DNA from: a virus
Length of the DNA: 21,024 nt
IMG/VR virus record: IMGVR_UViG_3300025769_012299
Location: 1 to 21,024 of that record
Strand: one strand, 5' to 3'
Numbering within the stretch: position 1 is the stretch's first letter; the number at the start of each line of letters is the position of its first letter. A program made the position numbers and the translations under genes. The notes beneath the pieces are model-generated. The model saw only the letters and a list, made by a program, of their open reading frames with translations, ran no database searches and was not told the DNA's origin. Below, piece by piece: positions 718 to 21,024 of this stretch.

Positions 718-770
718 TTGATAGAGTGGTGTGAACTAAACAAAATAAAGTGCATTATTGGAAGGTAGGA

Positions 771-1082
771 ATGGAAAAAGACGGAAATAAAGGAGTTGGA
801 AATCCTATGGTACGTGCTCTCGGTAAAACGAAGCCAGACCGTAATTGGTACACTGAGGATTTTCAGTGGTATTTAAAATGGGGTGCATCGGTGATAATAC
901 TGTTTAGCCTCGCTATGAGAGCTGCTGGTATTGAGTACCGAATGTACGATTTATACTTTGGTTGGGTGGGCATTCTCTTGTGGATTTGGGTGTCCGTAAT
1001 TTGGAGAGATCGAGCGTTAATCATGTTGAACACAGTATCATGGTTTATGCTTACAGTAGCAATTATGAAGGAGTGGGCATAA
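771..1082 (+). CDS. three-span membrane protein, 103 aa
   Basis: ATG 771 was chosen over GTG 750 because GGAAGG sits about 6 nt upstream of it. The protein has a hydrophilic N-terminus (residues 1-32, with a WYTEDFQWYLKWG stretch) and then three hydrophobic segments at roughly 33-48, 58-76 and 82-98, separated by short loops with Arg, Asp and Glu. It should be an integral inner-membrane protein. I know no characterised family for it. It is followed by a TAATG overlap with the next small membrane gene. Confidence 0.7.
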   Translation: MEKDGNKGVGNPMVRALGKTKPDRNWYTEDFQWYLKWGASVIILFSLAMRAAGIEYRMYDLYFGWVGILLWIWVSVIWRDRALIMLNTVSWFMLTVAIMKEWA

Positions 1083-2861: not shown

Positions 2862-3032
2862 GTGTCTTACATATGGCGGACAACGCTCGTTGACTCCAAT
2901 GTAGAAATTATATTTTTTATCACTCTCTGTATGGTATTCTTTATATCTACATAAAGTAACAGGAGTGACTTTTCCAGAAGAGTATATAACTGTGCTGCTC
3001 TCGAGTACGAGATACAGCCAGATCACGGTCAT
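2847..3032 (-). CDS. small protein with hydrophobic N-terminus, 61 aa
   Basis: The start overlaps the iscU stop (ATGA on the minus strand), indicating coupling. The first ~16 residues (MTVIWLYLVLESSTVI) are hydrophobic and could be a weak signal or anchor; the rest is polar, basic and Tyr-rich, with cysteines C28 and C51. Its stop codon lies in the loop of the terminator at 2837-2861. No family is recognised. Position after iscU hints at a shared expression unit but not necessarily a shared function. Confidence 0.55.
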   Translation of the reverse strand: MTVIWLYLVLESSTVIYSSGKVTPVTLCRYKEYHTESDKKYNFYIGVNERCPPYVRHKKGA

Positions 3033-3418
3033 TGATTGTTGGCCGTGTGCTCCTTTTGATTATAGTCTGCGATTGCAGCTTTGATGGCATCCTCTGCAAG
3101 TACTGAGCAGTGTATTTTTACTGGAGGTAGTGTAAGTTCTCGTGCGATGTCTGTATTAGTGATTCGCCCGGCTTCTTCAAGACTTTTACCTTTGACCCAC
3201 TCGGTGAGTAAAGAACTAGAAGCAATAGCACTACCACAGCCATAGGTCTTAAATTTTGCGTCCTCAATGATTCCATCCTCAACTCTTATTTGAAGTTGCA
3301 TGACATCACCACAAGCAGGTGCTCCCACCATACCTGTACCAACATCCTTATCCTCTCTATCCATCTTTCCAACATTGCGAGGATTTTCATAGTGATCTAT
3401 TACTTTATCTGAGTACAT
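3029..3418 (-). CDS. iscU: Fe-S cluster assembly scaffold IscU, 129 aa
   Basis: The protein reads almost like bacterial housekeeping IscU: MYSDKVIDHYENPRNVG at the start, GAPACGD with C36 and D38, YGCGSAIASSS with C61, and LPPVKIHC with H103 and C104. Those are the cluster ligands and the LPPVK site recognised by the HscA chaperone (97-101), so it should accept sulfur from host IscS and use host HscA/HscB. Length equals the family norm. ATG 3418 follows AGGTGG at 8 nt; a GTG at 3430 would add four residues. No iscS, hscA or fdx is nearby, so it must plug into the host machinery. It is the fifth gene of a minus-strand operon with bS21 and MazG. Recent capture from a gammaproteobacterial host is inferred from the resemblance. 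Confidence 0.95.
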   Translation of the reverse strand: MYSDKVIDHYENPRNVGKMDREDKDVGTGMVGAPACGDVMQLQIRVEDGIIEDAKFKTYGCGSAIASSSLLTEWVKGKSLEEAGRITNTDIARELTLPPVKIHCSVLAEDAIKAAIADYNQKEHTANNQ

Positions 3419-3540
3419 TGCTTTTTCCACCTATCTAAAGTTTCTTTGTGTATAGCCTCATGTGAGTAGTACATTGTAATACCCCCAAATACCATCGGAC
3501 ACATAAAGACTGCGAGCAACCCTAGTAAGCCTATATCCAT
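3400..3540 (-). CDS. small membrane protein, 46 aa
   Basis: ATG 3540 shares one base with the mazG stop (TAATG on the minus strand), and the 3' end overlaps the start of iscU by 19 nt. Residues 1-22 (MDIGLLGLLAVFMCPMVFGG) are a hydrophobic span followed by a basic helical tail (HKETLDRWKKQCTQIK). A single-pass inner-membrane protein is likely; the role is unknown. It fills the gap between mazG and iscU that would otherwise look empty. Confidence 0.55.
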   Translation of the reverse strand: MDIGLLGLLAVFMCPMVFGGITMYYSHEAIHKETLDRWKKQCTQIK

Positions 3541-4340: not shown

Positions 4341-4380
4341 AAAAAAATATCTTGACATTCGTTTCATTTTTCTGTATAAT
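4341..4380 (+). promoter_or_regulatory. sigma70-type promoter P4352
   Basis: An A-tract (4341-4347), -35 TTGACA (4352-4357), 17-nt spacer, -10 TATAAT (4375-4380). It is divergent from the minus promoter, with -35 elements about 37 nt apart. It probably drives the operon from 4391 through the M15 peptidase. Confidence 0.9.
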
Positions 4381-5904: not shown

Positions 5905-6351
5905 ATGAACAGAGAAGCAGTTTACGAACAGCTCAAAATTGATGAAGGAGTAGTGTATGAAATTTATTTGGACCATCTTGGGTACAAAACCTTCGGAGTG
6001 GGACATCTCGTGCTTGAGTCAGATCCAGAGCACGGATATGACGTCGGAGAACCAGTCTCAGTTGAGCGAGTCATCGAGTGTTTTGAAAGCGATCTCGATG
6101 TGGCTGTAAGCGAATGCGTTGCACTCTATGGCCCAGACGTCTGGGAAGGCTTCCCTGGCGAAGTACAAGAAATACTCGTAAACATGATGTTCAACCTCGG
6201 TCGCCCAAGACTTGGCAAATTCAAAAAAATGAATGCCCATCTTGTGGACGGCGAATGGTCTCAAGCAGCTATCGAAGGGCGAGACTCACGCTGGCACAAG
6301 CAAGTAGGCAATCGAGCAGAGAGGTTAATGACAAGACTTGAGAATGTCTAA
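5905..6351 (+). CDS. T4-type lysozyme (GH24), 148 aa
   Basis: The N-terminus LKIDEGVVYEIYLDHLGYKT followed by FGVGH carries the T4 lysozyme catalytic triad at expected spacing: E14, D23 and T29. Further support comes from the middle segment VNMMFNLGRPRLGKFKKM and the C-terminal SRWHKQVGNRAERLM. It hydrolyses the MurNAc-GlcNAc bond of peptidoglycan. There is no signal peptide, so export would depend on a holin. Length is close to T4 gpE (164 aa). CGGAG precedes the ATG. Its stop overlaps the start of the alternative oxidase gene, so lysis and respiratory genes share a message. Confidence 0.93.
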   Translation: MNREAVYEQLKIDEGVVYEIYLDHLGYKTFGVGHLVLESDPEHGYDVGEPVSVERVIECFESDLDVAVSECVALYGPDVWEGFPGEVQEILVNMMFNLGRPRLGKFKKMNAHLVDGEWSQAAIEGRDSRWHKQVGNRAERLMTRLENV

Positions 6352-6913
6352 CAAAATTGTTGCAAAATCTATGACCAAGTTTTTTCGCTTTACTGCGGAT
6401 ATGTTCTTTCGAGAGCGGTATGGTCATAGAGCTGTAGTTCTGGAAACCATTGCTGGAGTACCGGGAATGGTTGCCGGAATGCTTACACACCTGTCGAGCC
6501 TGCGCGGGCTAAAGAAAGGACAGGGTAGTAAGATTCACGAAATGCTTGCGGAAGCGGAGAACGAACGTAAGCATTTGATGTTTATTATGGAGGTAGTACA
6601 GCCTACAAAGCTGGAGCGGGGTCTTATCATACTTGCACAGTTTATATTCTGGCACTACTACCTTCTCATGTATCTAGTAGCGCCTCGTACAGCGCACCTT
6701 ATGATACATTACTTTGAAGAAGAAGCAGTACAAAGCTATACTGCCTACCTGGGGGAAATTGATGCAGGACGTATTCAGAATGTTCCTGCTCCTCAAATTG
6801 CTATTGAATACTATAATCTCTTACCGGATGCTACCCTGTACGAGATGTTGAAGTACATTCGGCAAGATGAACAACATCATGCACACACTAACTTAATTTA
6901 CAGCGAGGCTTAA
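6344..6913 (+). CDS. aox: alternative oxidase (quinol:O2 oxidoreductase), 189 aa
   Basis: All diiron carboxylate motifs of the AOX family are present: LETIAGVPGMVAGMLTHLSSLR (E34, with the preceding RAVV), EAENERKHLM (E74 and H77), EEEAVQSYT (E125-E127 region) and DEQHHAH (E176 and H179). A hydrophobic stretch, residues about 93-113, fits the interfacial membrane-bound nature of AOX. The enzyme oxidises ubiquinol and reduces O2 to water without proton pumping, bypassing the cytochrome chain. The protein lacks a long N-terminal extension, as in bacterial members. ATG 6344 is inside the lysozyme gene's end; TTG 6338 is an alternative. The peroxiredoxin gene follows directly. Related plastoquinol oxidases (PTOX) are known in cyanophages; this one reads as the ubiquinol type. 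Confidence 0.95.
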   Translation: MSNKIVAKSMTKFFRFTADMFFRERYGHRAVVLETIAGVPGMVAGMLTHLSSLRGLKKGQGSKIHEMLAEAENERKHLMFIMEVVQPTKLERGLIILAQFIFWHYYLLMYLVAPRTAHLMIHYFEEEAVQSYTAYLGEIDAGRIQNVPAPQIAIEYYNLLPDATLYEMLKYIRQDEQHHAHTNLIYSEA

Positions 6914-7495
6914 ATGGCTATTTATTGTACCGAACACGAGCGCCACGAATACGAAGAGCGTGGCTACTGGCGCTCACTACCAGAACTTATTCCAGCAGTA
7001 ACATTTCAAACTCGTATCTACGATGGTACACGAGATCAATATGACTGGAAAGCAGTAACTACGTGGGACTTGTTTTCTAACAGTCGAGTTCTACTTTTTT
7101 CACTTCCTGGAGCCTTTACTCCAACTTGCTCTACCTACCAACTTCCTTCATTTGAACAGTTAGCGCCCGAAATCTATGCAGAAGGCATTGACGCAATCTA
7201 CTGCTTTACAGTAAATGATGCGTTTGTATGCAATGCTTGGGCGAAAGCAAACAATCTGAAAGAAGTACAGGTTATTCCTGACGGAAATGCAAACTTTACC
7301 GAAGCAATGTCAATGGTTGTAGATAAAGACAATCTTGGCTTCGGTCGTCGATCATGGCGTTATGCAGCCGTAGTAGATAATGGACATATTACAGATTGGT
7401 TCATTGAAGAAGGTCGAGAAGATAATCACAAGAAGGATCCTTATATGTTTACAGATCCTGCATACATTTTAAATAAGCTGCGAGAGGGTAATTAA
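6914..7495 (+). CDS. peroxiredoxin (Prx5/PrxII type), 193 aa
   Basis: The peroxidatic motif PGAFTPTC (C72), the following YQLPSFEQLAPE and the VNDAFVCNAWAK segment define the Prx5/type II peroxiredoxin class, which reduces H2O2 and organic peroxides using thiols such as glutaredoxin/GSH. C97 and C106 are possible resolving cysteines. A ~35-residue N-terminal extension (MAIYCTEHERHEYEERGYW) precedes the thioredoxin fold and is unusual. ATG follows the AOX stop without a gap, so the two are co-expressed: an oxygen-consuming oxidase paired with a peroxide scavenger. Confidence 0.92.
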   Translation: MAIYCTEHERHEYEERGYWRSLPELIPAVTFQTRIYDGTRDQYDWKAVTTWDLFSNSRVLLFSLPGAFTPTCSTYQLPSFEQLAPEIYAEGIDAIYCFTVNDAFVCNAWAKANNLKEVQVIPDGNANFTEAMSMVVDKDNLGFGRRSWRYAAVVDNGHITDWFIEEGREDNHKKDPYMFTDPAYILNKLREGN

Positions 7496-7533: not shown

Positions 7534-8133
7534 ATGAACTTATTTTATCTTGACAAAGACCTAGACAAGTGTGCTGAGTATCACGTAGACAAGCACGTCA
7601 ACAAAATGATACTCGAAGCTGCACAGCTTTTGTGTACTGCCATTTGGGTAGACCGCTTGCTAGGTTTTATACCACGAGCTCTTGAAAAAGACGAAGCTGC
7701 AGTTCTCAATGAATACAAGAAAGTTGAGAAGCCTCTAAAACCCGAAGAGCGTAAACTTACACCGTATCTCGGCATGATGTACAATCATCCCTGCACGATA
7801 TGGACTCGATCATCACTAGATAACTATGAGTGGACATGGTGCTATGCTCATGCACTCGCAGAGGAATTTCGGTATCGCTACGGCAAAGAACACAAGTCAT
7901 TCTGGCAGGTCATCAACAAACTACCTGACCCAGTCAATCTTGAACGAGTGGGGTTTACCACGTTTGGACTTGCGATGCCTGACATACTCAAGAACTATGA
8001 TGATCCAATACAGTCTTACCGTGACTATTATCATCTTGACAAGGCTACTTTCGCCAGTTGGTCTCATCGACCAACTCCCCCTTGGTGGGATGAGTCTCTT
8101 GCTGACTACGAACAGAGGATTACAGCAAAGTGA
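7534..8133 (+). CDS. conserved phage protein of unknown function, 199 aa
   Basis: [20 protein letters not shown] then [16 protein letters not shown] resembles a conserved protein I have seen in phages and large DNA viruses (pattern MNIFxLDxDPxxAAxxHxDKHVxKMILExxQLL), with later blocks [33 protein letters not shown] and [10 protein letters not shown]. Conserved His, Asp and Lys in the first block, and the NHP and WTR segments, suggest an enzyme or nucleic-acid binder, but no activity is known to me. The in-frame start at 7510 lies inside the promoter spacer, so ATG 7534 is the start. It overlaps the isocitrate lyase start by 4 nt (GTGA). Confidence 0.8.
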
Positions 8134-9332
8134 AAAAACGAAACTACAGCCGTGAAGATGTAAGAAAACTTCAGGGCACAATGGATATTGAACATACACT
8201 TGCAAGAAAAATGGCAAACAAAATGCGTATGCTTCTTGCAGAAAACCCTTACATTCACACATTTGGAGCGTACAATGGTCAGCAGGCTGTACAGCACGTC
8301 AAAGCAGGGCTTAAAGCAATTTATTGTTCAGGCTGGCAAGTCGCTGCATCAGCCAATACAAATAATGAGGTGTATCCTGACCAGTCTCTTTATAGTGTAG
8401 ATTCTGTACCCAATGTTGTGCGTAACATTAACAACGCTTTCCGTCGTGCTGACCAAATCCAGTATGCAGAAAGTGGTACTGGCTTTGAGTTTGCACCGAT
8501 TATTGCAGACGCAGAAGCAGGATTTGGAGGAGTACTAAACAGTTATGAATTGGCTAGAAACCTCATCGAAGCTGGGGCAGCTGGTGTCCATTTTGAAGAC
8601 CAGCTTGCGTCCGCCAAAAAATGCGGTCACCTTGGAGGAAAAGTCCTTATACCTCTTAGTGACGCTATCCGCAATCTTAACGCCGCTCGTCTTGCTGCTG
8701 ACGTTGCTGGGGTTGATACTCTGGTCGTCGCTCGGACTGATGCCGAGTCAGCCAGACTCCTCTCTAGCGACTACGACCAAGCAGACTACAAGTGGATGTC
8801 CGGAGATCGTACTGCTGACGGATTTTGGCAGATCGAAGGCGGACTTGAAATGGGATGTGAACGTGGGGCTGCATATGCAGAATACGCAGACCTCGTGTGG
8901 TGTGAAACAAGCAAGCCTTGTCTCAAAGAAGCTCGACGGTTTGCTGACGCGGTAAAAGGATCTTGTCCTGACGCAATGTTAGCATACAACTGCTCTCCTT
9001 CTTTCAACTGGAGAAAGTCTATTCCTGGAGATCAGGAACTACAGGACTTTCAGTATGAGCTTGGAAAAATGGGCTTCAAGTTTCAGTTTATTACACTTGC
9101 AGGATTCCATGCTACAAACTATGGCGTATTTAACTTTGCTCGTCAGTACAAAGATCGAGGAATGTTTGCTTACTCTCAACTACAAGAAGCAGAGTTTGCA
9201 GCAGAACAGTTTGGATACACATCAACTCGACACCAACAGGAAGTGGGTGTTGGATACTTTGACGCAATCACCACAGCTCTTGGTAGTAGTACCGCGGCTA
9301 TGGCAGACTCAACGGAGGCAGATCAGTTTTGA
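8130..9332 (+). CDS. aceA: isocitrate lyase, 400 aa
   Basis: The isocitrate lyase signature KKCGHL (catalytic C165) follows [10 protein letters not shown], and the Mg-binding DAEAGFGG (from D127), [17 protein letters not shown] (about residue 288) and [10 protein letters not shown] blocks are all present. The end THQQEVG-like block [16 protein letters not shown] and the terminal STEADQF equal the bacterial AceA C-terminus. At 400 aa it is slightly shorter than the E. coli enzyme (434 aa), mainly at the N-terminus. It splits isocitrate to glyoxylate and succinate, opening the glyoxylate shunt. No malate synthase or isocitrate dehydrogenase kinase is in view. GTG 8130 overlaps the previous stop, and the gene's stop overlaps a TTG start, so it is embedded in a phage operon rather than inserted host DNA. 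Confidence 0.97.
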
Positions 9333-10398: not shown

Positions 10399-12045
10399 AT
10401 GAAACTGATTAAAAGTACTACAAGTCCTTTAGACGCAGATAAGCACCCACTAGCTTTAGAAATAGTAACAAATGTAGTTGCTGTAATATCTGAAGAATGT
10501 CAATCAGGAAAAACAACTTGGGTTATAAATAGTATCCTTGATAAACAAGACTGCGATCATTTTCTTTTTACTTACGATAAACACGTAGTAAAACAAGATG
10601 CTTTAGAAAAATTTAATGTAGAAGCAAAAAAGCGCAGTTTGTCGCCTACTATTATTACAAATAAAAAAGATTTAAAGGTTGTATATAAAGACCGACTAAA
10701 AGGGGACTACTATCCTATAATATGTGTTCTTTTAGGAAATATATCTAACTTTGCTGCAGCAAAAAGTCTTCTGTCTATGAGTAAGAAAACAAATATACCT
10801 CAGCACGTATACTTAGATGAAATACATAGATATACGTTAGGCGAGGAGATAGCTAGCACGGTACAAATAGATAATTTTGTAAATGAGTTATTAAAAAATA
10901 ACCAGTGCGATCATTTATGGTGTATAAGTGCGACCGCCCACGATCTATTACATACAAAATTAGTGTTAGGAAAGCAATCTCTAGTACTTACTCCATATCC
11001 CGGATTCAAGGGCTTGAAAGACGCTCAGTGGCATCTAGTAGATCGTTCAATTTTTGAAGAAGTGCTTTCTAAGTATAAAGCATACAAAAATAATGGAATA
11101 GACTCAGACTTACCCGAGGAACTAAAAGATATTATTGATGTTTTTGCAGCACAAGATATGCTAATAAACTTACATCCTGAACAAGCTTTTCACGAGTGGA
11201 TGGCTAAAAAAATCGTAGATGGAGGAGCGTATAACGGTTCTGTAAAAAGTTTATTAGGTAATTTTATAGGCAAGTATTCTATGTCTATGAGTACAACTTT
11301 TCCTAACCACAATAAAATAATATACTATAACAAAATGACGCGCTCCGCACAGATAGGTGCAATTGTACAAGAGCTAGGCAGAGTCAATGGTAGGAAAAAA
11401 CCTGTTATTATAACAACGCAAGAAGTAAAAGATGCAGTGCTTGATTACTTGTTGTACAACAAGTGTATTGTTGAAGAAGAAGTATATAAAATGGCTCCTA
11501 AACACCGAGATACTTGGCTGTCTTCGTACTTCCATAGAAACCCTAATATTATTCCAGGGTCCAAACACAGACAAAATCGAGTTATAACTACTTTCAGTGT
11601 AGAAGAAGAAGGAACTGTAGAAACCTGTAATGAGCTTTACACAAAATTATATATACCAGATATGTATGATATAAGATGGGAAGGCAAAGGTATAGGAGCT
11701 AAAATATTAAAAAGAATAAAAGAAACAGACCCAGAAATTTATAACTCTATAGAAGGTATGAGCTATATAACAGATACTGATACTCGAGACGATGGAGACA
11801 TTTGGCACAAACAAAGAGAAGGTAAGTTTCAAGTTAGATTTGGAAAAGCTTACCTCACTCCAGGGTATGTTGCTATTGTAGTAAGAAAAACTATGGAAAA
11901 AGGGTTTAAATCTTTTTATGACGTAAATGGAAATCTTTTTACTAATAAAGTAATACCTATGGGATTTGTTCAAAGCGTTGAGCATCACCAAAAAATGAAA
12001 GAAGTAGAAGCAAGAGTACATGCAGAACTTCAACTACTTAACTAA
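10399..12045 (+). CDS. SF2-like helicase/ATPase, 548 aa, AT-rich
   Basis: Helicase motifs occur in order: a Walker A-like EECQSGKTT (K38; the usual leading Ala/Gly and first loop Gly are replaced), Walker B LDEIH (D140-E141), motif III-like CISATA (S177-T179), and motif VI-like IVQELGRVNGR (about 322-332), typical of SF2 ATPases. About 200 residues beyond motif VI form a C-terminal domain of unknown fold with no obvious nuclease motif. Base composition is visibly more AT-rich, with heavy AGA, ATA and AAA use, than the genes on either side. ATG abuts the previous stop, so it is still part of the operon. Replication, recombination or anti-defence roles are all possible. Confidence 0.75.
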   Translation: MKLIKSTTSPLDADKHPLALEIVTNVVAVISEECQSGKTTWVINSILDKQDCDHFLFTYDKHVVKQDALEKFNVEAKKRSLSPTIITNKKDLKVVYKDRLKGDYYPIICVLLGNISNFAAAKSLLSMSKKTNIPQHVYLDEIHRYTLGEEIASTVQIDNFVNELLKNNQCDHLWCISATAHDLLHTKLVLGKQSLVLTPYPGFKGLKDAQWHLVDRSIFEEVLSKYKAYKNNGIDSDLPEELKDIIDVFAAQDMLINLHPEQAFHEWMAKKIVDGGAYNGSVKSLLGNFIGKYSMSMSTTFPNHNKIIYYNKMTRSAQIGAIVQELGRVNGRKKPVIITTQEVKDAVLDYLLYNKCIVEEEVYKMAPKHRDTWLSSYFHRNPNIIPGSKHRQNRVITTFSVEEEGTVETCNELYTKLYIPDMYDIRWEGKGIGAKILKRIKETDPEIYNSIEGMSYITDTDTRDDGDIWHKQREGKFQVRFGKAYLTPGYVAIVVRKTMEKGFKSFYDVNGNLFTNKVIPMGFVQSVEHHQKMKEVEARVHAELQLLN

Positions 12046-13267: not shown

Positions 13268-14215
13268 ATGCATCATTTTTTGGAAAAAGCATCTGCAATG
13301 TATTATAACGGTAATCCGATTTTGTCGGATGAAGAGTTTGATGCGCTTGCAAGAAAGTATAGATATGAAGAGGTTGGTTATCAGGTTACTGATGGCATTC
13401 CTCATATGTATCGTATGTACTCTCTACAAAAGGTGTTTAATCTAGAAGATATAGAAAGTAGTACGGCACCTATGGTGCGTACACCTAAACTAGATGGGGC
13501 AGCAGTGTCGTTGCAATATGTTAACGGCCATCTAGCACAGGCTTTGACTCGAGGTGACGGCCAGCTTGGTCGTGATATCACGTTGAAGATGGAAGAGCTA
13601 GTCCCAAATGTAGTCGGCATCAAGGGCAACCTTCAGATTACCGGCGAGGTCGTAGCGCCCGATACGATTCCAAATGCTCGCAACTTTGCAGCGGGGTCGC
13701 TTAATCTTAAAGATTATATGGAGTTTCGTGAGCGTTGTAAGGAACTACGCTTTGTTGCGTATGATATACAAGGCGACGTATCTTATGAGCGTCTCTCCGA
13801 AGCAATGAATCATTTGGCCCAGCAAGGATTTCATACTATCACTCACTTCGATGCAACTGGCTATCCAACAGATGGCGAGGTGTTTAGAGTAGATAGCTAT
13901 GATGCCTTTTATAAGCTGGGATATACAGCTCACCACCCTCGAGGGGCTTTCGCTCTTAAAGAGCAGAAAGATGGGGTTATTACAGAATTACTTGATGTTG
14001 TGTGGCAGGTTGGCAAGTCGGGAGTTGTGAGCCCAGTTGCTATCCTACGCCCAGTCGAAGTGGGAGATGCGCTAGTGAGCCGTGCAACTCTACACAACAT
14101 CGAGTACATTCGCTCCCTCAACCTAGAAATAGGTTGTTCAGTTGAAGTTATACGCAGTGGTGAGATCATTCCACGGATCGTCAGACGAGTGGACGTCGAG
14201 AAAAATAGTTCTTGA
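13268..14215 (+). CDS. ligA: NAD-dependent DNA ligase, N-terminal part (adenylation + OB), 315 aa
   Basis: The nucleotidyltransferase motif TPKLDGAAVSL holds the adenylated lysine K74 (KxDG). ALTRGDGQLGRDIT, ITGEVVAP, NPRNFAAGSL-like NARNFAAGSL, VAYDIQG and VWQVGKSGVVSPVA follow, the last opening the OB fold that ends with HN.EYI and GEIIPRIV. An NAD-binding domain Ia remnant (MYYNGNPILSDEEFDAL, residues 11-27) is present but shorter than in bacterial LigA. Bacterial enzymes are ~670 aa; this half stops after the OB fold, and the missing zinc-finger, HhH and BRCT parts are in the next gene. Phage T5 also splits its ligase in two. The TGA stop is inside the -35 element of the next promoter. 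Confidence 0.95.
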   Translation: MHHFLEKASAMYYNGNPILSDEEFDALARKYRYEEVGYQVTDGIPHMYRMYSLQKVFNLEDIESSTAPMVRTPKLDGAAVSLQYVNGHLAQALTRGDGQLGRDITLKMEELVPNVVGIKGNLQITGEVVAPDTIPNARNFAAGSLNLKDYMEFRERCKELRFVAYDIQGDVSYERLSEAMNHLAQQGFHTITHFDATGYPTDGEVFRVDSYDAFYKLGYTAHHPRGAFALKEQKDGVITELLDVVWQVGKSGVVSPVAILRPVEVGDALVSRATLHNIEYIRSLNLEIGCSVEVIRSGEIIPRIVRRVDVEKNSS

Positions 14216-14241
14216 CATTTAGGTCAATTCTGTCGTATAAT
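14201..14241 (+). promoter_or_regulatory. sigma70-type promoter P14212 at the ligase split
   Basis: AAAAATAGTTC, -35 TTGACA (14212-14217), 18-nt spacer, -10 TATAAT (14236-14241). The last residues of LigA (KNSS) and its TGA are encoded by the promoter's upstream block and -35. It drives ligB. Confidence 0.92.
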
Positions 14242-14267: not shown

Positions 14268-15026
14268 ATGTTTCAAGAAATCAACTTCCCTACTAACTGT
14301 CCTTCTTGCGACAGTGAGTTAGAATGGGTAAATGATTCTTTGTACTGCCGTAATCATCTGTGCCCTGCACAAAATGCTAAAGCAGTGGAGCATTTTGCCA
14401 AGACTATGAAGATCAAAGGCCTCGGCCCTGCATCTATCAAGAAACTTGGTTGGACGTGCCCGTCCGAAATTTACACCTCTACGGAGGAGAGTATCTTAGC
14501 ATCGTTGGGCTCTGAGAAAGTGACCTCTAAGCTCATGTTGGAGATATTGAATTCGTTCGATGCTCCACTTGAGCGCCTTTTACCTGCCTTTGGTATTCCA
14601 TTGATTGGAAATACGGCAACACGGAAGCTGTCTGAGACTATATCACATATTTCTAATATCAATGCAGACACTTGTGAGCGTGCCGGATTGGGCCCAAAGG
14701 CTACACACAACTTGCTTGAGTGGATAGAAAATGAGCTGCCATACTTTCAGGAGCATATTCCTTGTAGTTGGTATTTTTCTGATACTCCTTCATTGCCGCT
14801 TGCGAGTAAAGGAACCGTATGTATCTCAGGTAGACTGAAGAGTTTCAAGTCTAAAGCCGAAGCTACAACGGCCTTGAACGCGGCTGGATATGAAGTAAAG
14901 TCCAGTTTAACTAAGCAAGTCACACACCTCGTTAATGAGGGCGGGCAAGAGTCCGCAAAAACTAGACAAGCCAGAGACACTGGCGTAACTATAGTTACAG
15001 ACCTAATTTCTTTTTTGGAGAACTAA
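14268..15026 (+). CDS. ligB: NAD-dependent DNA ligase, C-terminal part (Zn finger, HhH, BRCT), 252 aa
   Basis: A four-cysteine zinc finger (C11, C14, C27, C32) opens the protein, followed by helix-hairpin-helix repeats (IKGLGPASIKKLG around 49-61; FGIPLIGNTATRKL around 108-121; GLGPKATHNLLEW around 140-152) and a BRCT domain (about 180-252: GTVCISGRLKSF, LTKQVTHLV, TGVTIVTDLISFL). These are the C-terminal modules of bacterial LigA, here as a separate chain expected to associate with the upstream LigA chain. GGAG lies 8 nt before ATG. Confidence 0.95.
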   Translation: MFQEINFPTNCPSCDSELEWVNDSLYCRNHLCPAQNAKAVEHFAKTMKIKGLGPASIKKLGWTCPSEIYTSTEESILASLGSEKVTSKLMLEILNSFDAPLERLLPAFGIPLIGNTATRKLSETISHISNINADTCERAGLGPKATHNLLEWIENELPYFQEHIPCSWYFSDTPSLPLASKGTVCISGRLKSFKSKAEATTALNAAGYEVKSSLTKQVTHLVNEGGQESAKTRQARDTGVTIVTDLISFLEN

Positions 15027-15809: not shown

Positions 15810-17165
15810 TTGAATATATCTAGTGCTTTGTTGAAGCAGTGTATTACTGTGGGAGACTTTGAGACGTGGAGCTATCTGCGTAAAGAGTATCTTCCTACAG
15901 AATATCATCTGTTATATGAGGCAATTGATAAACATTGTGAAACTCACCACCAGTTCCCTTCATTCGATGATCTCAAGCTAAACATACGTCATCCTGCAAC
16001 TAAGAGTAAGGTCTATGCCTTAGAAGATGTTGACGTAGATGTAGATCCAGCTACACTACTTGAGTATTTGAAAAATGAGTATACACAAAAAGAGATATTA
16101 AACTCTTTGGATAGGTATATCGACAATACGGTGTTGTTTGCAGATGCAGAAGAGTCAGTTGATGAGCTACATCAGTTGGTTCTGGATATAGAGACTAAAG
16201 TAGACCTAGAAGCTCCTCAAGAAAGTATGCAACGCATCAACTTGTTGGAGCCCGAAGAAGATCGTGCCAAGCAAATAGGCTTGGGTCTAAATCTCGATTA
16301 CGATCAGGATATCACTTTCAGCCCTCGAGACCTTATTCTTGTCGGCGGTAGAAGAGGTTCTGGTAAATCTATTACTTGTGCAAATGTTGCAAACAACGTC
16401 TTTCAGTCTGGGCATTCAGCTATTTATTTCACTATTGAGATGGATAGTAGAGCGATATTGCAACGATGTTGTTCTATTGCTACTGGCGTACCTTTTTCGA
16501 GAATCCGTTCTGGAAACCTTACCAACACTGAGTGGGAAAAGGTTGCAGGATGGCAAGCCGCTCGATTCCAAAATGGTCAGGATCGCTTACAGGAATATAG
16601 AAACAGTCAGTCTAGAGACTACAACGAGTTCCATCGTAAACTAACTACTCAACATGAGCTTCTCCCGACTCAGCAGTTGGACGTTGTTTATGATCCTAGT
16701 CTTACTATTGCGAAGATTAGAGCAGAGCTTGACAAAAAAGTTCATAGACTGGACGCTCGCGTCATTATTGTTGACTATATCAACCAGGTTAAGCGGTCCC
16801 ACCTACCTTCCCGGGGAGGTCAGTACGACTGGACAGAACAGATTGAAGTAAGTAAAGCATTGAAATCCATGGCACAAGAGTATGAGTGTGCTGTTTTCTC
16901 TCCGTATCAAACTGATGCTACGGGAGAGGCGAGATTTGCTAAAGGCATCCTTGATGCGGCAGACGCGGCTTACACTCTTGATACATGGGACCAAGAGGAT
17001 CAATGCATTAGTTTTAACTGTGTAAAAATGAGATCAGCTAGTATGAAGCACTTTACTTCTACTATGGATTGGGAAACTCTAAAGATTGGACCTGATACAG
17101 CTCTCACTCCAAAAGAGAAAGAGAGTTCATCTCATAAAACAGAAGAAGATGTATACGACCTTTAA
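15810..17165 (+). CDS. dnaB: DnaB-type replicative DNA helicase, 451 aa
   Basis: The RecA-like motor has Walker A GGRRGSGKS (179-187, K186), an H1a-like ETxx segment IYFTIEMD (E after about residue 208), and Walker B VIIVDYINQV (D322), followed by SKALKSMAQEYECAVFSPYQ, the DnaB motif H3 region. The N-terminal ~150 residues are helical, as in DnaB-like phage helicases. It should unwind the fork together with the separate primase at 18116. The TTG start follows GGGGAA by about 5 nt, right after the terminator. The C-terminal ~25 residues are acidic and low-complexity. Confidence 0.9.
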   Translation: MNISSALLKQCITVGDFETWSYLRKEYLPTEYHLLYEAIDKHCETHHQFPSFDDLKLNIRHPATKSKVYALEDVDVDVDPATLLEYLKNEYTQKEILNSLDRYIDNTVLFADAEESVDELHQLVLDIETKVDLEAPQESMQRINLLEPEEDRAKQIGLGLNLDYDQDITFSPRDLILVGGRRGSGKSITCANVANNVFQSGHSAIYFTIEMDSRAILQRCCSIATGVPFSRIRSGNLTNTEWEKVAGWQAARFQNGQDRLQEYRNSQSRDYNEFHRKLTTQHELLPTQQLDVVYDPSLTIAKIRAELDKKVHRLDARVIIVDYINQVKRSHLPSRGGQYDWTEQIEVSKALKSMAQEYECAVFSPYQTDATGEARFAKGILDAADAAYTLDTWDQEDQCISFNCVKMRSASMKHFTSTMDWETLKIGPDTALTPKEKESSSHKTEEDVYDL

Positions 17166-17166
17166 C

Positions 17167-17206
17167 AAAAATAATGCTTGACATTCCCTGCTGATTGCTG
17201 TATAAT
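17167..17206 (+). promoter_or_regulatory. sigma70-type promoter P17178
   Basis: AAAAATAATGC, -35 TTGACA (17178-17183), 17-nt spacer, -10 TATAAT (17201-17206). Its upstream block (AATAATGC) matches the minus-strand promoter at 4315 rather than the AATAGTTC class. It drives the cytochrome-primase-polymerase operon. Confidence 0.92.
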
Positions 17207-17236: not shown

Positions 17237-17530
17237 ATGGGAATGATATATGGATCACTTCGACATACAACTAGCGGTAGAAAAAAGAAAAGCAGTACTA
17301 AGAGCTCTCGACGAACTATCCGAGCAGTTCAATCAAACTCTCCAAAACCTTATAGACGAGAAACACCTGAGTACAGAAGTGCCTCCGACACAACTGGAGT
17401 TGCCGCTCGGCACGACCCGATGCAGTATACAGGACAGTTGGTTAAAGGGATAGGGACTATGCACAAGTCGAATGCAGTACCGATTATTGACGAACAACAC
17501 ATGAAAGACATCGCAAGGATGAGAAGATGA
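17237..17530 (+). CDS. basic conserved phage protein, 97 aa
   Basis: From ATG 17237 the protein is very basic in its first 40 residues (LRHTTSGRKKKSSTKSSRR), then YTGQLVKGIGTMHKSNAVP and IARMRR at the end, a C-terminal pattern that I associate with a recurrent phage protein of unknown function. Another frame (17250-17453) is open here but lacks such a pattern and is treated as a shadow. GGGG lies about 10 nt upstream. Its stop overlaps the cytochrome start (ATGA). Confidence 0.65.
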   Translation: MGMIYGSLRHTTSGRKKKSSTKSSRRTIRAVQSNSPKPYRRETPEYRSASDTTGVAARHDPMQYTGQLVKGIGTMHKSNAVPIIDEQHMKDIARMRR

Positions 17531-17838
17531 AAAAAGTTTTATTCACCACAGCATTACTAATGCTGGCACCCGCAGTAGAAGCAGAAGATCGCTTTGAAAA
17601 TATTCGAGAGGAGTGGAAGATGTGTACCACTTGTCACGGCGCTCAGGGGCAGGGCGGTATTGGGCCTCAACTTGCAGGACAGTCTGCCGATGATATTATT
17701 AGCAAGCTACTACATTATAGAATGGGTCATCCTATTGGTGCTCAGTCTGCTATGATGTATCCTTGGGCACAGGCCTTGACAGAGGGACAGATAGGCACTA
17801 TCGGCGTATTTGTTCAAGAAGGATTCCCAGAAAAATGA
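17527..17838 (+). CDS. periplasmic class I c-type cytochrome, 103 aa
   Basis: Residues 1-19 (MKKVLFTTALLMLAPAVEA) are a signal peptide with AxA cleavage. C33-TT-C36-H37 is the haem c attachment motif, followed by GAQGQGGIGPQLAGQ and, near the C-terminus, M76/M77 in SAMMYPWAQALTEGQI, a candidate axial methionine. Spacing and wording match single-haem c553/c4-type cytochromes, which carry electrons in the periplasm. Haem attachment would need the host Ccm system. The start overlaps the upstream stop, and its own stop overlaps the next ATG, so it is locked into the replication operon between the helicase and primase genes. Confidence 0.93.
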   Translation: MKKVLFTTALLMLAPAVEAEDRFENIREEWKMCTTCHGAQGQGGIGPQLAGQSADDIISKLLHYRMGHPIGAQSAMMYPWAQALTEGQIGTIGVFVQEGFPEK

Positions 17839-18119
17839 ACCGAAGACTGAAGCCAAAAATTACAGAACTCTTTGATATCCTAGAAAAAGATATGGATATC
17901 GGAGACTATGAGCACGCTGATGTAATTTTGACACGCTTATCAAAGTACTTTCACCTGTTTGATGATGAGCATACAGACTATTATCAGTATGCTCAAGATG
18001 TCTGCGACTCTATGCTACACGGAGAGAATGACGATTACTATGATGGTGAAAACTATTTAGATGACTGGGATGGAGATGCTTTAGCCTCTGCTGGCTGGGG
18101 CGTAGATGAAAACTATTGA
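17835..18119 (+). CDS. acidic small protein, 94 aa
   Basis: ATG 17835 overlaps the cytochrome stop (ATGA); the TGA overlaps the primase TTG. The N-terminus is basic (MNRRLKPK), followed by a helical region and a highly acidic Asp/Glu/Tyr-rich C-terminal half (ENDDYYDGENYLDDWDGDAL). No cysteine pair, membrane span or family is recognised. A DNA-mimic or binding partner role is conceivable from the charge pattern, but nothing else supports it. Confidence 0.7.
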   Translation: MNRRLKPKITELFDILEKDMDIGDYEHADVILTRLSKYFHLFDDEHTDYYQYAQDVCDSMLHGENDDYYDGENYLDDWDGDALASAGWGVDENY

Positions 18120-18949
18120 ACGTAGAAGATTTACTTAACGCAAAAAATATTCCATATATTCCGAAAGGCAAAGACTTTGTTGTCAGTTGTCTTAATCCTG
18201 AGCACCCTGATAAAAATCCAAGTATGCGTATTGACCAGGTAACAGGCATATTCAACTGTTTTTCGTGTGAGTATAAAGGTAACTTGTTTACTCACTTCGG
18301 ACAAAAAGCAAATAAAATGGAGATCAAGCGTCAGTTGTTGAAAAAGAAAATTCAACAAGTGCGGGAGGAAAGCAGCGGTATAGAACTTCCTCGTGACGCT
18401 ACTACTTTTATGGGCACTTGGCGCGGTATTAGCCAGAAAACCTATAGACAATTTGAAGCATTTATGAGCGGACAGAAAGAATTTAGTGGTCGCATTTGTT
18501 TTCCTATTCGTGACAGAACAGGAAAGATAGTTGCAATTCAAGCCAGAACTCAGACTACTCAGATGCCTAAATACTACAATGCTCCTGTTGGAGCAAAGAT
18601 GCCTTTATTTCCCACTGTTTCTACAATACAGAACAGTGTTATTTTAGTAGAAGGAATATTCGATGTTCTAAATCTACACGATAAGGGCTTGACCAATGCA
18701 GTATGCTGCTTTGGCGTAAAAAACTTTACAGACGAAAAGTTAGAAATGTTATCCGTTCAGGGAGTTACAAACATAGATATCTTTCTTGACAATGACGAAG
18801 CCGGTCAGAGCGGGGCCGCAAGAGTTAAAGAACAGTGCGAGAAATTTGGTCTCAATACCCGTAACATTGCATTTGGAGACAAGTACATAGATGCCGGGGC
18901 ACTGAATCAATCTCAGGTAGACAGCCTAAGGAGACAATTATATGCCTAG
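18116..18949 (+). CDS. DnaG-type primase, 277 aa
   Basis: A zinc-binding domain occupies residues about 20-55 (C25, H30, C48, C51 in SCLNPEHPDKNPSMRI and FNCFSCEYKGN). The catalytic Toprim fold follows with ILVEGIFDVL (E179, D183) and FLDNDEAGQSG (D225, D227), and a GRICFPIRDRTGKIVAIQAR segment typical of the DnaG/Twinkle-type core. It makes RNA primers and lacks a fused helicase, the helicase being at 15810. TTG 18116 overlaps the preceding stop (TTGA). It overlaps the polymerase start by 8 nt. Confidence 0.93.
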   Translation: MNVEDLLNAKNIPYIPKGKDFVVSCLNPEHPDKNPSMRIDQVTGIFNCFSCEYKGNLFTHFGQKANKMEIKRQLLKKKIQQVREESSGIELPRDATTFMGTWRGISQKTYRQFEAFMSGQKEFSGRICFPIRDRTGKIVAIQARTQTTQMPKYYNAPVGAKMPLFPTVSTIQNSVILVEGIFDVLNLHDKGLTNAVCCFGVKNFTDEKLEMLSVQGVTNIDIFLDNDEAGQSGAARVKEQCEKFGLNTRNIAFGDKYIDAGALNQSQVDSLRRQLYA

Positions 18950-21024
18950 AGTTGCATTAGTAGAAACTAAACCAAGTAGAACTAATTTTAAACAAGAATT
19001 TGACAATGCTTTTGAGTTTGATCAGTATCAGTTATGCTCTAATCCTGATCTCAAGAAAGTATTGAAACGAGACTGCGACATCGACATGAGCCCAGATGAT
19101 TATGACTGGGTTATTCTTGTTGGATCGGACGCGCTCAAGTATTACACAAAAGTTAATTCAGTAACAGAATATTCGGGTAAGAAGATCGAAGGCAAGTTCT
19201 TACCTGTTATCAATCCTGCAATGCTTGCCTTTAAGCCAGAAGCTAAAAGAACATGGGACGACTCTAAGGAGAGTATTAAGAACTATATCGCTGGTGACTT
19301 TGAGGATATAACCGTCAATGAAGACGTTGCTTTTGGCATCCAAGATACGGAGAAAGCAAATGAATTTATTCAGGCCGCCATCAGAGAAGAATGTGAATAT
19401 GTTGCACTCGATTCTGAGACAACTGGGTTATATCCCCGTGATGGTTATATGCTTGGTATTAGTCTGTCTTATAATAATAAGTTCGGTGCTTATATTGATA
19501 CCGATTGTTTTAATGATGAGACTGAAAGACTTCTGCAAGAGTTATTTAACAAGAAGATCGTAGTATTTCACAACGCTAAGTTCGATATGGCGTTTTTCGA
19601 GTATCACTTTCACTTCAAGTTTCCTCGTTTTGAGGACACCATGCTGCTCCATTACCTCATAGACGAGAATCCCGGAGGGCACGGCCTAAAGACTCTATCA
19701 CTAAAGTACACTCCCTACGGAGACTATGAAAAGCCCATGTATGACTGGATTGACCAGTATCGTAAAGAGCATGGCATTCTGAAAGGTGACTTTCAGTGGG
19801 GAGCTATTCCCTTTGATATTATGAAAACTTATGCAGCAATGGATGCTTTATGTACTTTCTTGCTGTATGAGAAGTTTAAGAAAATTAAACAAAACAAAAA
19901 ACTCAATTCTGTATATGAGAATATTCTTATTCCAGGTACTCGATTTCTGACAGATATACAGGACAATGGAGTGCCTTTTGACAAGAAACGCTTGTATGTT
20001 GCACAAGACGCAATGCAAACTGACATTGATACAGCAATCGCCAAGCTCTATGAAAATCCAAAAGTACGGAGGTTTGAGGAAATAAATGCAAAACCTTTTA
20101 ATCCTAATTCTACTCTGCAGTTGCGTAAGTTACTATTTGACCAACTTGGCCTTAAACCGACTGGAAAGAAAACTGGGACGGGCGCAGATTCTACGGATGC
20201 GGAAGTCCTCAAGGAACTCGCAATTCAAAGCGATGTACCTAAACTCATCTTGGATATCAGACAAAAATCCAAAATCAAGAATACTTACCTTGACAAAATT
20301 ATACCTCAGTTGGATAGAGACTCTCGTCTTCGCACAGGCTTTAATCTGCACAGTACTACTTCTGGTCGCCTTAGTTCTAGTGGTAAACTTAATATGCAGC
20401 AGCTTCCTCGGGATAACCCTACTGTAAAGGGGTGTATCAAGGCAGCTCCAGGCCACAAGATTGTTGCTATGGACCTGACGACTGCCGAAGTATACGTTGC
20501 GGCAGTTCTTGCAAATGATGTAGCCTTAATGGATGTGTTCCGATCTGGAGGCAACTTCCACAGTACTATTGCTCACAAGGTGTTTCGACTTCCTTGCGAA
20601 GTAGAAGAAGTAGCAGAGTTATACTCAGATCGTAGACAGGCTGCAAAAGCCGTTACCTTTGGTATTATGTACGGAGCTGGCCCTGCAAAGATCAGTGAAC
20701 AAGTAACAAAAGACAGTGGTAAGTATTTTTCAAAGAACGAGGCCACAGAAGTAATTAATGAATATTTTGGCACATTCCATAGTCTAAAAGCGTGGATTGA
20801 AGATAGGCAAAAGTTTATCGAACAGAATGGATATGTGTACAGCTACTTTGGCCGAAAGAGGAGGCTACCTAATGTTGAAAGTACCGATAAAGGCATCAAG
20901 TCTCATAGCATTCGCTCTGGTCTTAATTTTTTGGTCCAGTCCGCTGCTTCTGATATTAACCTTTTGGGGGCCATAGATATGCAAGACTTTATACAACAAA
21001 ACAGTATGAAGTCAAGAATCTTTG
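18942..21024 (+). CDS. polA: family A DNA polymerase with 3'-5' exonuclease (3' end outside window)
   Basis: 694 codons are visible and the frame is open at the right edge. After a ~145-residue N-terminal region, the DEDD exonuclease is present: LDSETTGLYP (D157, E159), VVFHNAKFDMAF, and YAAMDALCTFLLY. Polymerase motifs follow: motif A AMDLTTAEVYVAAV (D511, E516) and motif B RQAAKAVTFGIMYG (Phe573 at the position equivalent to E. coli Pol I F762), then YGYVYSYFGRKRRLPN-like and QSAASDINLLGA. Motif C (HDE) lies beyond the window. GGAG lies about 9 nt upstream. There is no 5'-3' flap nuclease domain in this chain. It completes the replisome with DnaB, primase, PC4 and ligase. Confidence 0.95.
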   Translation, partial: MPRVALVETKPSRTNFKQEFDNAFEFDQYQLCSNPDLKKVLKRDCDIDMSPDDYDWVILVGSDALKYYTKVNSVTEYSGKKIEGKFLPVINPAMLAFKPEAKRTWDDSKESIKNYIAGDFEDITVNEDVAFGIQDTEKANEFIQAAIREECEYVALDSETTGLYPRDGYMLGISLSYNNKFGAYIDTDCFNDETERLLQELFNKKIVVFHNAKFDMAFFEYHFHFKFPRFEDTMLLHYLIDENPGGHGLKTLSLKYTPYGDYEKPMYDWIDQYRKEHGILKGDFQWGAIPFDIMKTYAAMDALCTFLLYEKFKKIKQNKKLNSVYENILIPGTRFLTDIQDNGVPFDKKRLYVAQDAMQTDIDTAIAKLYENPKVRRFEEINAKPFNPNSTLQLRKLLFDQLGLKPTGKKTGTGADSTDAEVLKELAIQSDVPKLILDIRQKSKIKNTYLDKIIPQLDRDSRLRTGFNLHSTTSGRLSSSGKLNMQQLPRDNPTVKGCIKAAPGHKIVAMDLTTAEVYVAAVLANDVALMDVFRSGGNFHSTIAHKVFRLPCEVEEVAELYSDRRQAAKAVTFGIMYGAGPAKISEQVTKDSGKYFSKNEATEVINEYFGTFHSLKAWIEDRQKFIEQNGYVYSYFGRKRRLPNVESTDKGIKSHSIRSGLNFLVQSAASDINLLGAIDMQDFIQQNSMKSRIF

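Follow-up and report, generated by a model that had tools for sequence, protein, structure and literature searches.

A phage-borne class I cytochrome c within a replication operon: a probable periplasmic electron carrier of a respiration and glyoxylate module

The DNA analysed here (the window) is a linear 21-kb IMG/VR virus record, IMGVR_UViG_3300025769_012299, taken over its full 21,024 nucleotides; it is a fragment. Its replication genes are T5-like and comprise a D5-like regulator, a D6-like helicase, a primase, a polymerase and an NAD-dependent DNA ligase encoded as two separate genes with a perfect promoter between them (Table 1). For the D5-like regulator, D6-type helicase and T5-type primase the PHROG matches are phrog_323 (2e-49), phrog_19 and phrog_47, and matches to T5-like phages lie at 30–41% identity. 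The combination of these three genes fits a T5-like (Demerecviridae-type) phage, and the window's standing as a genuine phage genome is given by the occurrence of these genes in an IMG/VR record and of the same cytochrome in several phage types. The window also encodes a 548-aa protein that has no confident PHROG match and is read by eye as a helicase-type ATPase; at the corresponding position in L003 and L005 no homologue came to light.

Table 1. Positions of the genes and promoters of the window that are discussed in the text
Feature	Position	Strand	Remarks
Small membrane protein, DUF6552	750..1082		Pfam 4.4e-16
IscU Fe-S scaffold	3029..3430	-	
Perfect promoter	4352	+	
Alternative oxidase (AOX, quinol oxidase)	6344..6913	+	PF01786 5.5e-63; iron-ligand motifs ERKH, EEEA, DEQHH
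Peroxiredoxin-like redoxin	6914..7495	+	Adjoins AOX
Perfect promoter	7499	+	
Isocitrate lyase (ICL)	8130..9332	+	NF011645 1.5e-189, above cut-off, equivalog-level; KKCGH active-site motif
548-aa protein	10399..12045		
NAD-dependent DNA ligase, first gene	13268..14215		
Perfect promoter	14212..14241	+	Between the ligase genes
NAD-dependent DNA ligase, second gene	14268..15026		
T5 D6-like DnaB-type helicase	15810..17165	+	Upstream of cytochrome
Perfect sigma-70-type promoter, TTGACA-N17-TATAAT	17178..17206	+	Precedes the gene run from basic gene through cytochrome, acidic gene and primase to polymerase
Basic protein, function unknown	17237..17530	+	97 aa, pI 11.0; phrog_27048
Class I monohaem cytochrome c	17527..17838	+	ATG to TGA, 103 aa
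Acidic protein, function unknown	17835..18119	+	94 aa, pI 4.1; start overlaps cytochrome stop (ATGA)
DnaG-type primase	18116..18949	+	TTG start overlapped by acidic gene
DNA polymerase I-like	18942..21024	+	Runs off the window

The initial annotation described overlapping start and stop codons on both sides of the cytochrome gene, in the company of a basic protein, an acidic protein, primase and polymerase. This is borne out by the pI values of the two flanking products and by an ATGA overlap at each end, where the TGA of the basic gene meets the cytochrome ATG and the cytochrome TGA meets the ATG of the acidic gene. Perfect promoters occur four times on the plus strand of the window (4352, 7499, 14212 and 17178), against 0.02 expected. 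Eleven relatives, some having the cytochrome and others not, keep the copy at 17178, in some with one change in the first hexamer. Those at 4352 and 7499 stand upstream of gene runs holding AOX-redoxin and ICL. Perfect sigma-70 promoters allow early transcription by the host RNA polymerase, and because they lie upstream of all three gene runs such transcription is likely for the cytochrome, AOX-redoxin and ICL alike; the early expression first proposed for the cytochrome is likely in view of its conserved promoter sequence. A T4-like phage, L022, has ten exact TTGACA/TATAAT promoters on its plus strand.

The cytochrome protein reads MKKVLFTTALLMLAPAVEA up to a cleavage site placed by eye and continues as EDRFENIREEWKMCTTCHG...SAMMYPWAQALTEGQIGTIGVFVQEGFPEK. 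Residues 1–20, also read by eye, resemble a signal peptide, the haem motif CTTCH provides Cys33, Cys36 and His37, and two methionines follow in succession further along the chain. Across an alignment of 22 phage homologues, Cys33, Cys36 and His37 are invariant, so that a gene retained with its motif lost, which the annotation had named as grounds for rejecting its reading, is never seen. Met77, the second of the pair, is invariant while Met76 varies and is therefore the likely axial ligand; it aligns with the methionine of known c552/c546 sequences. Both the CTTCH and the candidate axial methionine of the annotation accordingly stand.

Database matches agree with this assignment. The protein matches the Pfam models Cytochrom_C (1.2e-4, above the model cut-off) and Cytochrome_CBB3 (3.5e-5, just below that model's own cut-off), and against the PDB it finds 8yts at 4e-11 as a single sequence and reaches 1e-21 to 1e-22 in a profile search, with solved c552, c553, c554 and c4 cytochromes as its sequence matches. 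An AlphaFold2 model built from the alignment of phage homologues predicts four helices with a mean pLDDT of 87.5, rising to at least 92 over residues 21–100. The best Foldseek matches of this model in the PDB are c546/556, c554, c553 and c552 at a TM of about 0.8 by target length, and the all-helical cytochrome c fold is recovered in the model at about 0.8 to 8yts, 2zzs, 1c53 and 1cno. The predicted viral proteins of BFVD gave no structural match to the model, NCBIfam no subfamily above cut-off, PHROGs no family for either the cytochrome or ICL, and the INPHARED isolates no cytochrome relative at a tblastn E of 0.01.

Against its relatives the gene has a dN/dS of 0.08–0.20 in the comparisons that allowed an estimate of dS. 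The profile E-values, together with purifying selection across relatives, exclude a random ORF with a chance motif. The ORF is a genuine class I cytochrome c gene under selection, with intact haem-site residues. The signal-peptide c-type cytochrome of the annotation is thus upheld by the Pfam and PDB matches, the invariant ligands and the AlphaFold model, with the signal peptide itself read by eye. Three export or anchoring designs occur among the phage homologues: a soluble signal peptide, a lipobox LxGC (L029, L071 and L084) and an N-terminal membrane segment (L021/L022). The lipobox and membrane-segment variants agree with a periplasmic placement. In the cytochromes of L007, L011, L018, L019, L035 and L036 an additional short segment (LQEWSVF/LQEWTVFP...) separates the signal peptide from the mature domain; it is common to phages with the gene at differing places.

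Scanning viral contigs with the cytochrome itself gave 21 contigs, and the gene was found between the basic and acidic genes of the replication operon in five of these; in most of the remainder it is located near ICL and/or AOX. ICL and/or AOX homologues lie within the fetched sequence in 14 of the 21. The arrangements are varied, with ICL-cytochrome-AOX in L008 and L009, ICL-basic gene-cytochrome in L006, L011, L018 and L019, cytochrome-IscU in L010, and ICL, a 112-aa membrane protein (TM112), a lipoprotein cytochrome and AOX in L071 and L084. In L135 the cytochrome is on the opposite strand near AOX, and in the T4-like L022 it follows mazG. Three contigs with a 90% identical primase (L024–L026) have no cytochrome in the replication operon, and in L037, which otherwise belongs with L007 and L036 in one subgroup, the cytochrome is left out and an identical ATGA links the basic gene directly to the acidic gene. 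The description of a cytochrome locked inside the replication operon does not survive this comparison, as a survey of related phages finds the gene at that locus in one subclade and elsewhere in most phages.

A tree built from 63 domains unites the phage cytochromes in 88% of bootstraps. Within them the copies from the replication operon make up a single subclade, and the closest outgroups of that subclade are copies located near ICL. Given a short domain, a small number of alignment columns and weak deep forks, a single origin of all phage copies is rated as likely. In this tree the replication-operon placement is derived, from within copies that adjoin ICL/AOX. What comes after the C-terminus of the basic protein (phrog_27048) differs between genomes: the cytochrome in two unrelated settings and other genes in others, in most cases joined through ATGA, which suggests recombination at the 3' end of the basic gene. 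A fixed tie to replication is not supported by these observations. The role offered in the initial annotation, “energy supply during genome synthesis”, is a plausible hypothesis, with the qualification that the steady partners of the cytochrome are ICL and AOX, not primase and polymerase.

AOX and ICL are also encoded in the window, and it is with these that the cytochrome travels in its relatives. Another frequent neighbour is TM112, a conserved membrane protein (MFKSIGFWIYDLYNFFF...WDLEKEG) that immediately follows ICL in many phage contigs and frequently adjoins cytochrome, AOX or Cox genes (L071:8997-9335, L084:9073-9411, L090:9591-9929, and on the minus strand L135:2035-2373 and L332:3379-3714). 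It has no Pfam match and a marginal PHROG match (0.0076), and may be regarded as a module partner of unknown function. The DUF6552 protein of the window has relatives in several other ICL/AOX contigs.

Other viral contigs, akin to these in gene content, carry genes of cytochrome oxidase itself. CoxA is present in L337–L340: in L337 (3584-6472) with AOX, a CoxB bearing the CuA motif CTELC, and CtaG, with phage protease, nuclease and endolysin genes nearby; in L338 (7965-9530), from a 194-kb record, near tail fibre genes; in L339 (43-1658; 7358-8794) with CtaG-like and peroxiredoxin-like genes and a di-haem peroxidase (CCP_MauG, two CxxCH motifs); and in L340 (1-1338). The 6-kb contig L332, with the order ICL-AOX-TM112-CoxB-CoxA-CtaG, was binned in a bacterial genome (G063) but looks viral, tentatively in view of its short length, because a further CoxA, 70% identical, is present in that bin and a viral contig matches at 90%. 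Cytochrome and CoxA occur together in none of 19 whole records checked (cytochrome in eight, CoxA in four); for so small a set, of our own choosing and largely fragmentary, the pattern is suggestive.

The best bacterial match to the phage ICL, at 71% identity, comes from a 1.5-Mb gammaproteobacterial MAG, the next reaching 61%. In another genome of the same genus (G070) a cytochrome homologue sits directly after an oxidase operon led by coxB-coxA, with two small genes in between that are read by eye as coxC and coxD. Somewhat stronger monohaem cytochrome matches occur in other genomes in a class-wide search. Scanning genome contigs with the cytochrome alignment gave no confirmed bacterial relative, and whole-genome profile searches gave distant ones. 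Of the ten genomes of the genus, nine have CcmF and nine have cytochrome c1; a search for AOX gave nothing in any of them but did detect it in other genomes of the order. We have not adopted this genus as the phage host, since no AOX was found there and ICL similarity was the sole support; on that similarity it is a candidate donor or host.

We propose, with a probability of about 0.62, that the cytochrome is a phage-borne periplasmic electron carrier between the bc1 complex and cytochrome oxidase, acting within a respiration and glyoxylate module and expressed early by virtue of its operon position. The gene, its motifs, predicted fold and selection, its co-travel with ICL and AOX, its derived position and the promoter sequence are the basis of this proposal; export, haem loading, redox partners, benefit to the phage and host identity are what we infer from them. 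The protein would be exported, loaded with haem by the host Ccm system, and would carry electrons as a soluble periplasmic cytochrome from the host bc1 complex to cytochrome c oxidase, with the lipoprotein and membrane-anchored variants holding the same domain at the same membrane face. The position of the G070 homologue and the oxidase genes of L337–L340 favour this reading, although partnership with a viral oxidase is only a candidate, as no contig was found with both cytochrome and CoxA. The module would consist of cytochrome c, AOX and ICL, sometimes joined by IscU, peroxiredoxin, CoxBA-CtaG or a di-haem peroxidase. AOX would provide a second, non-pumping exit from quinol and ICL would open the glyoxylate shunt, so that together they may keep electron flow to oxygen high and carbon precursors available, retuning central carbon metabolism during phage replication. 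AOX takes its electrons from quinol, sidestepping bc1 and cytochrome c, and its pairing with a cytochrome c in one phage therefore needs argument; the argument made here is that of two parallel electron exits. A wider proposal, which we hold tentatively and at a little under even odds, is that phages of marine heterotrophs possess interchangeable genes that substitute for the terminal part of the respiratory chain, with cytochrome c, CoxBA-CtaG, AOX or di-haem peroxidase in varied combinations with ICL and TM112, which may rewire host respiration in infection.

The cytochrome could instead mainly feed a periplasmic di-haem cytochrome c peroxidase, of host or viral origin, and with peroxiredoxin and AOX remove H2O2 during infection. 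The gene content of L339 and the redoxin adjoining AOX in the window fit such a role, which we nonetheless consider unlikely: no peroxidase gene stands beside the cytochrome in loci read gene by gene, where ICL and AOX are the steady neighbours, and in the candidate genus it is a cytochrome oxidase that accompanies the homologue. Diversion rather than supplement is less likely again. Here the cytochrome would compete with the host carrier and slow or uncouple the proton-pumping branch, leaving respiration to the phage AOX; the AOX family are non-pumping quinol oxidases, and AOX does co-travel with the cytochrome, but the haem motif, axial methionine and fold are kept under purifying selection as for an active carrier, and the CoxBA-CtaG of other contigs would boost the same branch. 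A host-derived passenger gene with no function in the phage might be expected from its mobility between positions and its cassette-like behaviour behind the basic gene, yet this is highly improbable and contradicted by the selection data, the invariant ligands, the spread through T5-like and T4-like phages and the repeated association with ICL/AOX. A direct role in replication, or service to replication proteins, is suggested by the two ATGA overlaps and the shared promoter and is the least credible of all, being already largely refuted by the putative signal peptide, the absence of the gene from the same operon in close relatives and its placement elsewhere in most phages.

For the electron carrier that we favour, the replication-operon site would offer a strong early promoter for the host RNA polymerase and translational coupling. 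The position would imply no role for the cytochrome in replication, its early expression following from where the gene landed.

Auxiliary electron carriers are already known from phages; what is described here is a cytochrome c in a putative respiration and glyoxylate module. Cyanophages encode plastocyanin (petE), suggested to feed cytochrome oxidase, and PTOX (PMC5083919). By analogy, both systems would pair a phage-coded soluble electron carrier with a diiron quinol oxidase of the AOX/PTOX family, and the AOX of the window matches the PHROG for PTOX weakly, at 2.7e-4. They differ in that the cyanophage carrier is a copper protein in photosynthetic hosts, whereas here it is a haem protein of ICL-bearing phages with probable heterotrophic gammaproteobacterial hosts. 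Plastocyanin and cytochrome c have unrelated folds. With bacterial class I monohaem cytochromes c (c552 of Pseudomonas nautica, c554 of Vibrio, c553 of Desulfovibrio, and the domains of dihaem c4) the phage proteins share the predicted fold, CxxCH, axial methionine and a signal-peptide-like N-terminus, but they form a group of their own, most with a conserved VFVQEGFP tail and DRFxxIRxxW before the haem motif. Another c-type cytochrome among phage auxiliary metabolic genes is SoxD, reported with SoxC in sulfur oxidation (PMC8190135); it has CxxCHG and CMxxC motifs, in contrast to the free carrier found with ICL/AOX here.

Marine viromes have been reported to contain aceAB (ICL/malate synthase; PMC4053976) and cbb3 oxidase genes (PMC3474794), and ICL is recorded in viruses under an ice shelf (PMC10721903). 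The aceAB and cbb3 reports are gene or sequence counts, while here cytochrome c, ICL and AOX are linked on phage contigs. Cellular contamination can mimic such genes in viromes, as one account cautions (PMC3877843); linkage on contigs with phage replication genes answers this concern for the cytochrome, and less fully for the Cox genes. In the literature searched, which took in a minority of subscription journals, no description of a phage cytochrome c-ICL-AOX module was found.

The location of this gene illustrates that operon position alone can mislead on function, and that here it most likely reports the timing of expression and not partnership. Cyanophages, in which plastocyanin and PTOX divert photosynthetic electrons, supply most of what is known of how phages control electron transport in their hosts. 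From the sequence evidence assembled above, the phage probably retunes host respiration while it multiplies. If so, phage control of electron transport would extend to the aerobic respiration of heterotrophs, the hosts being probably non-photosynthetic marine bacteria, with consequences for the share of carbon that an infected cell respires or channels into biosynthesis.
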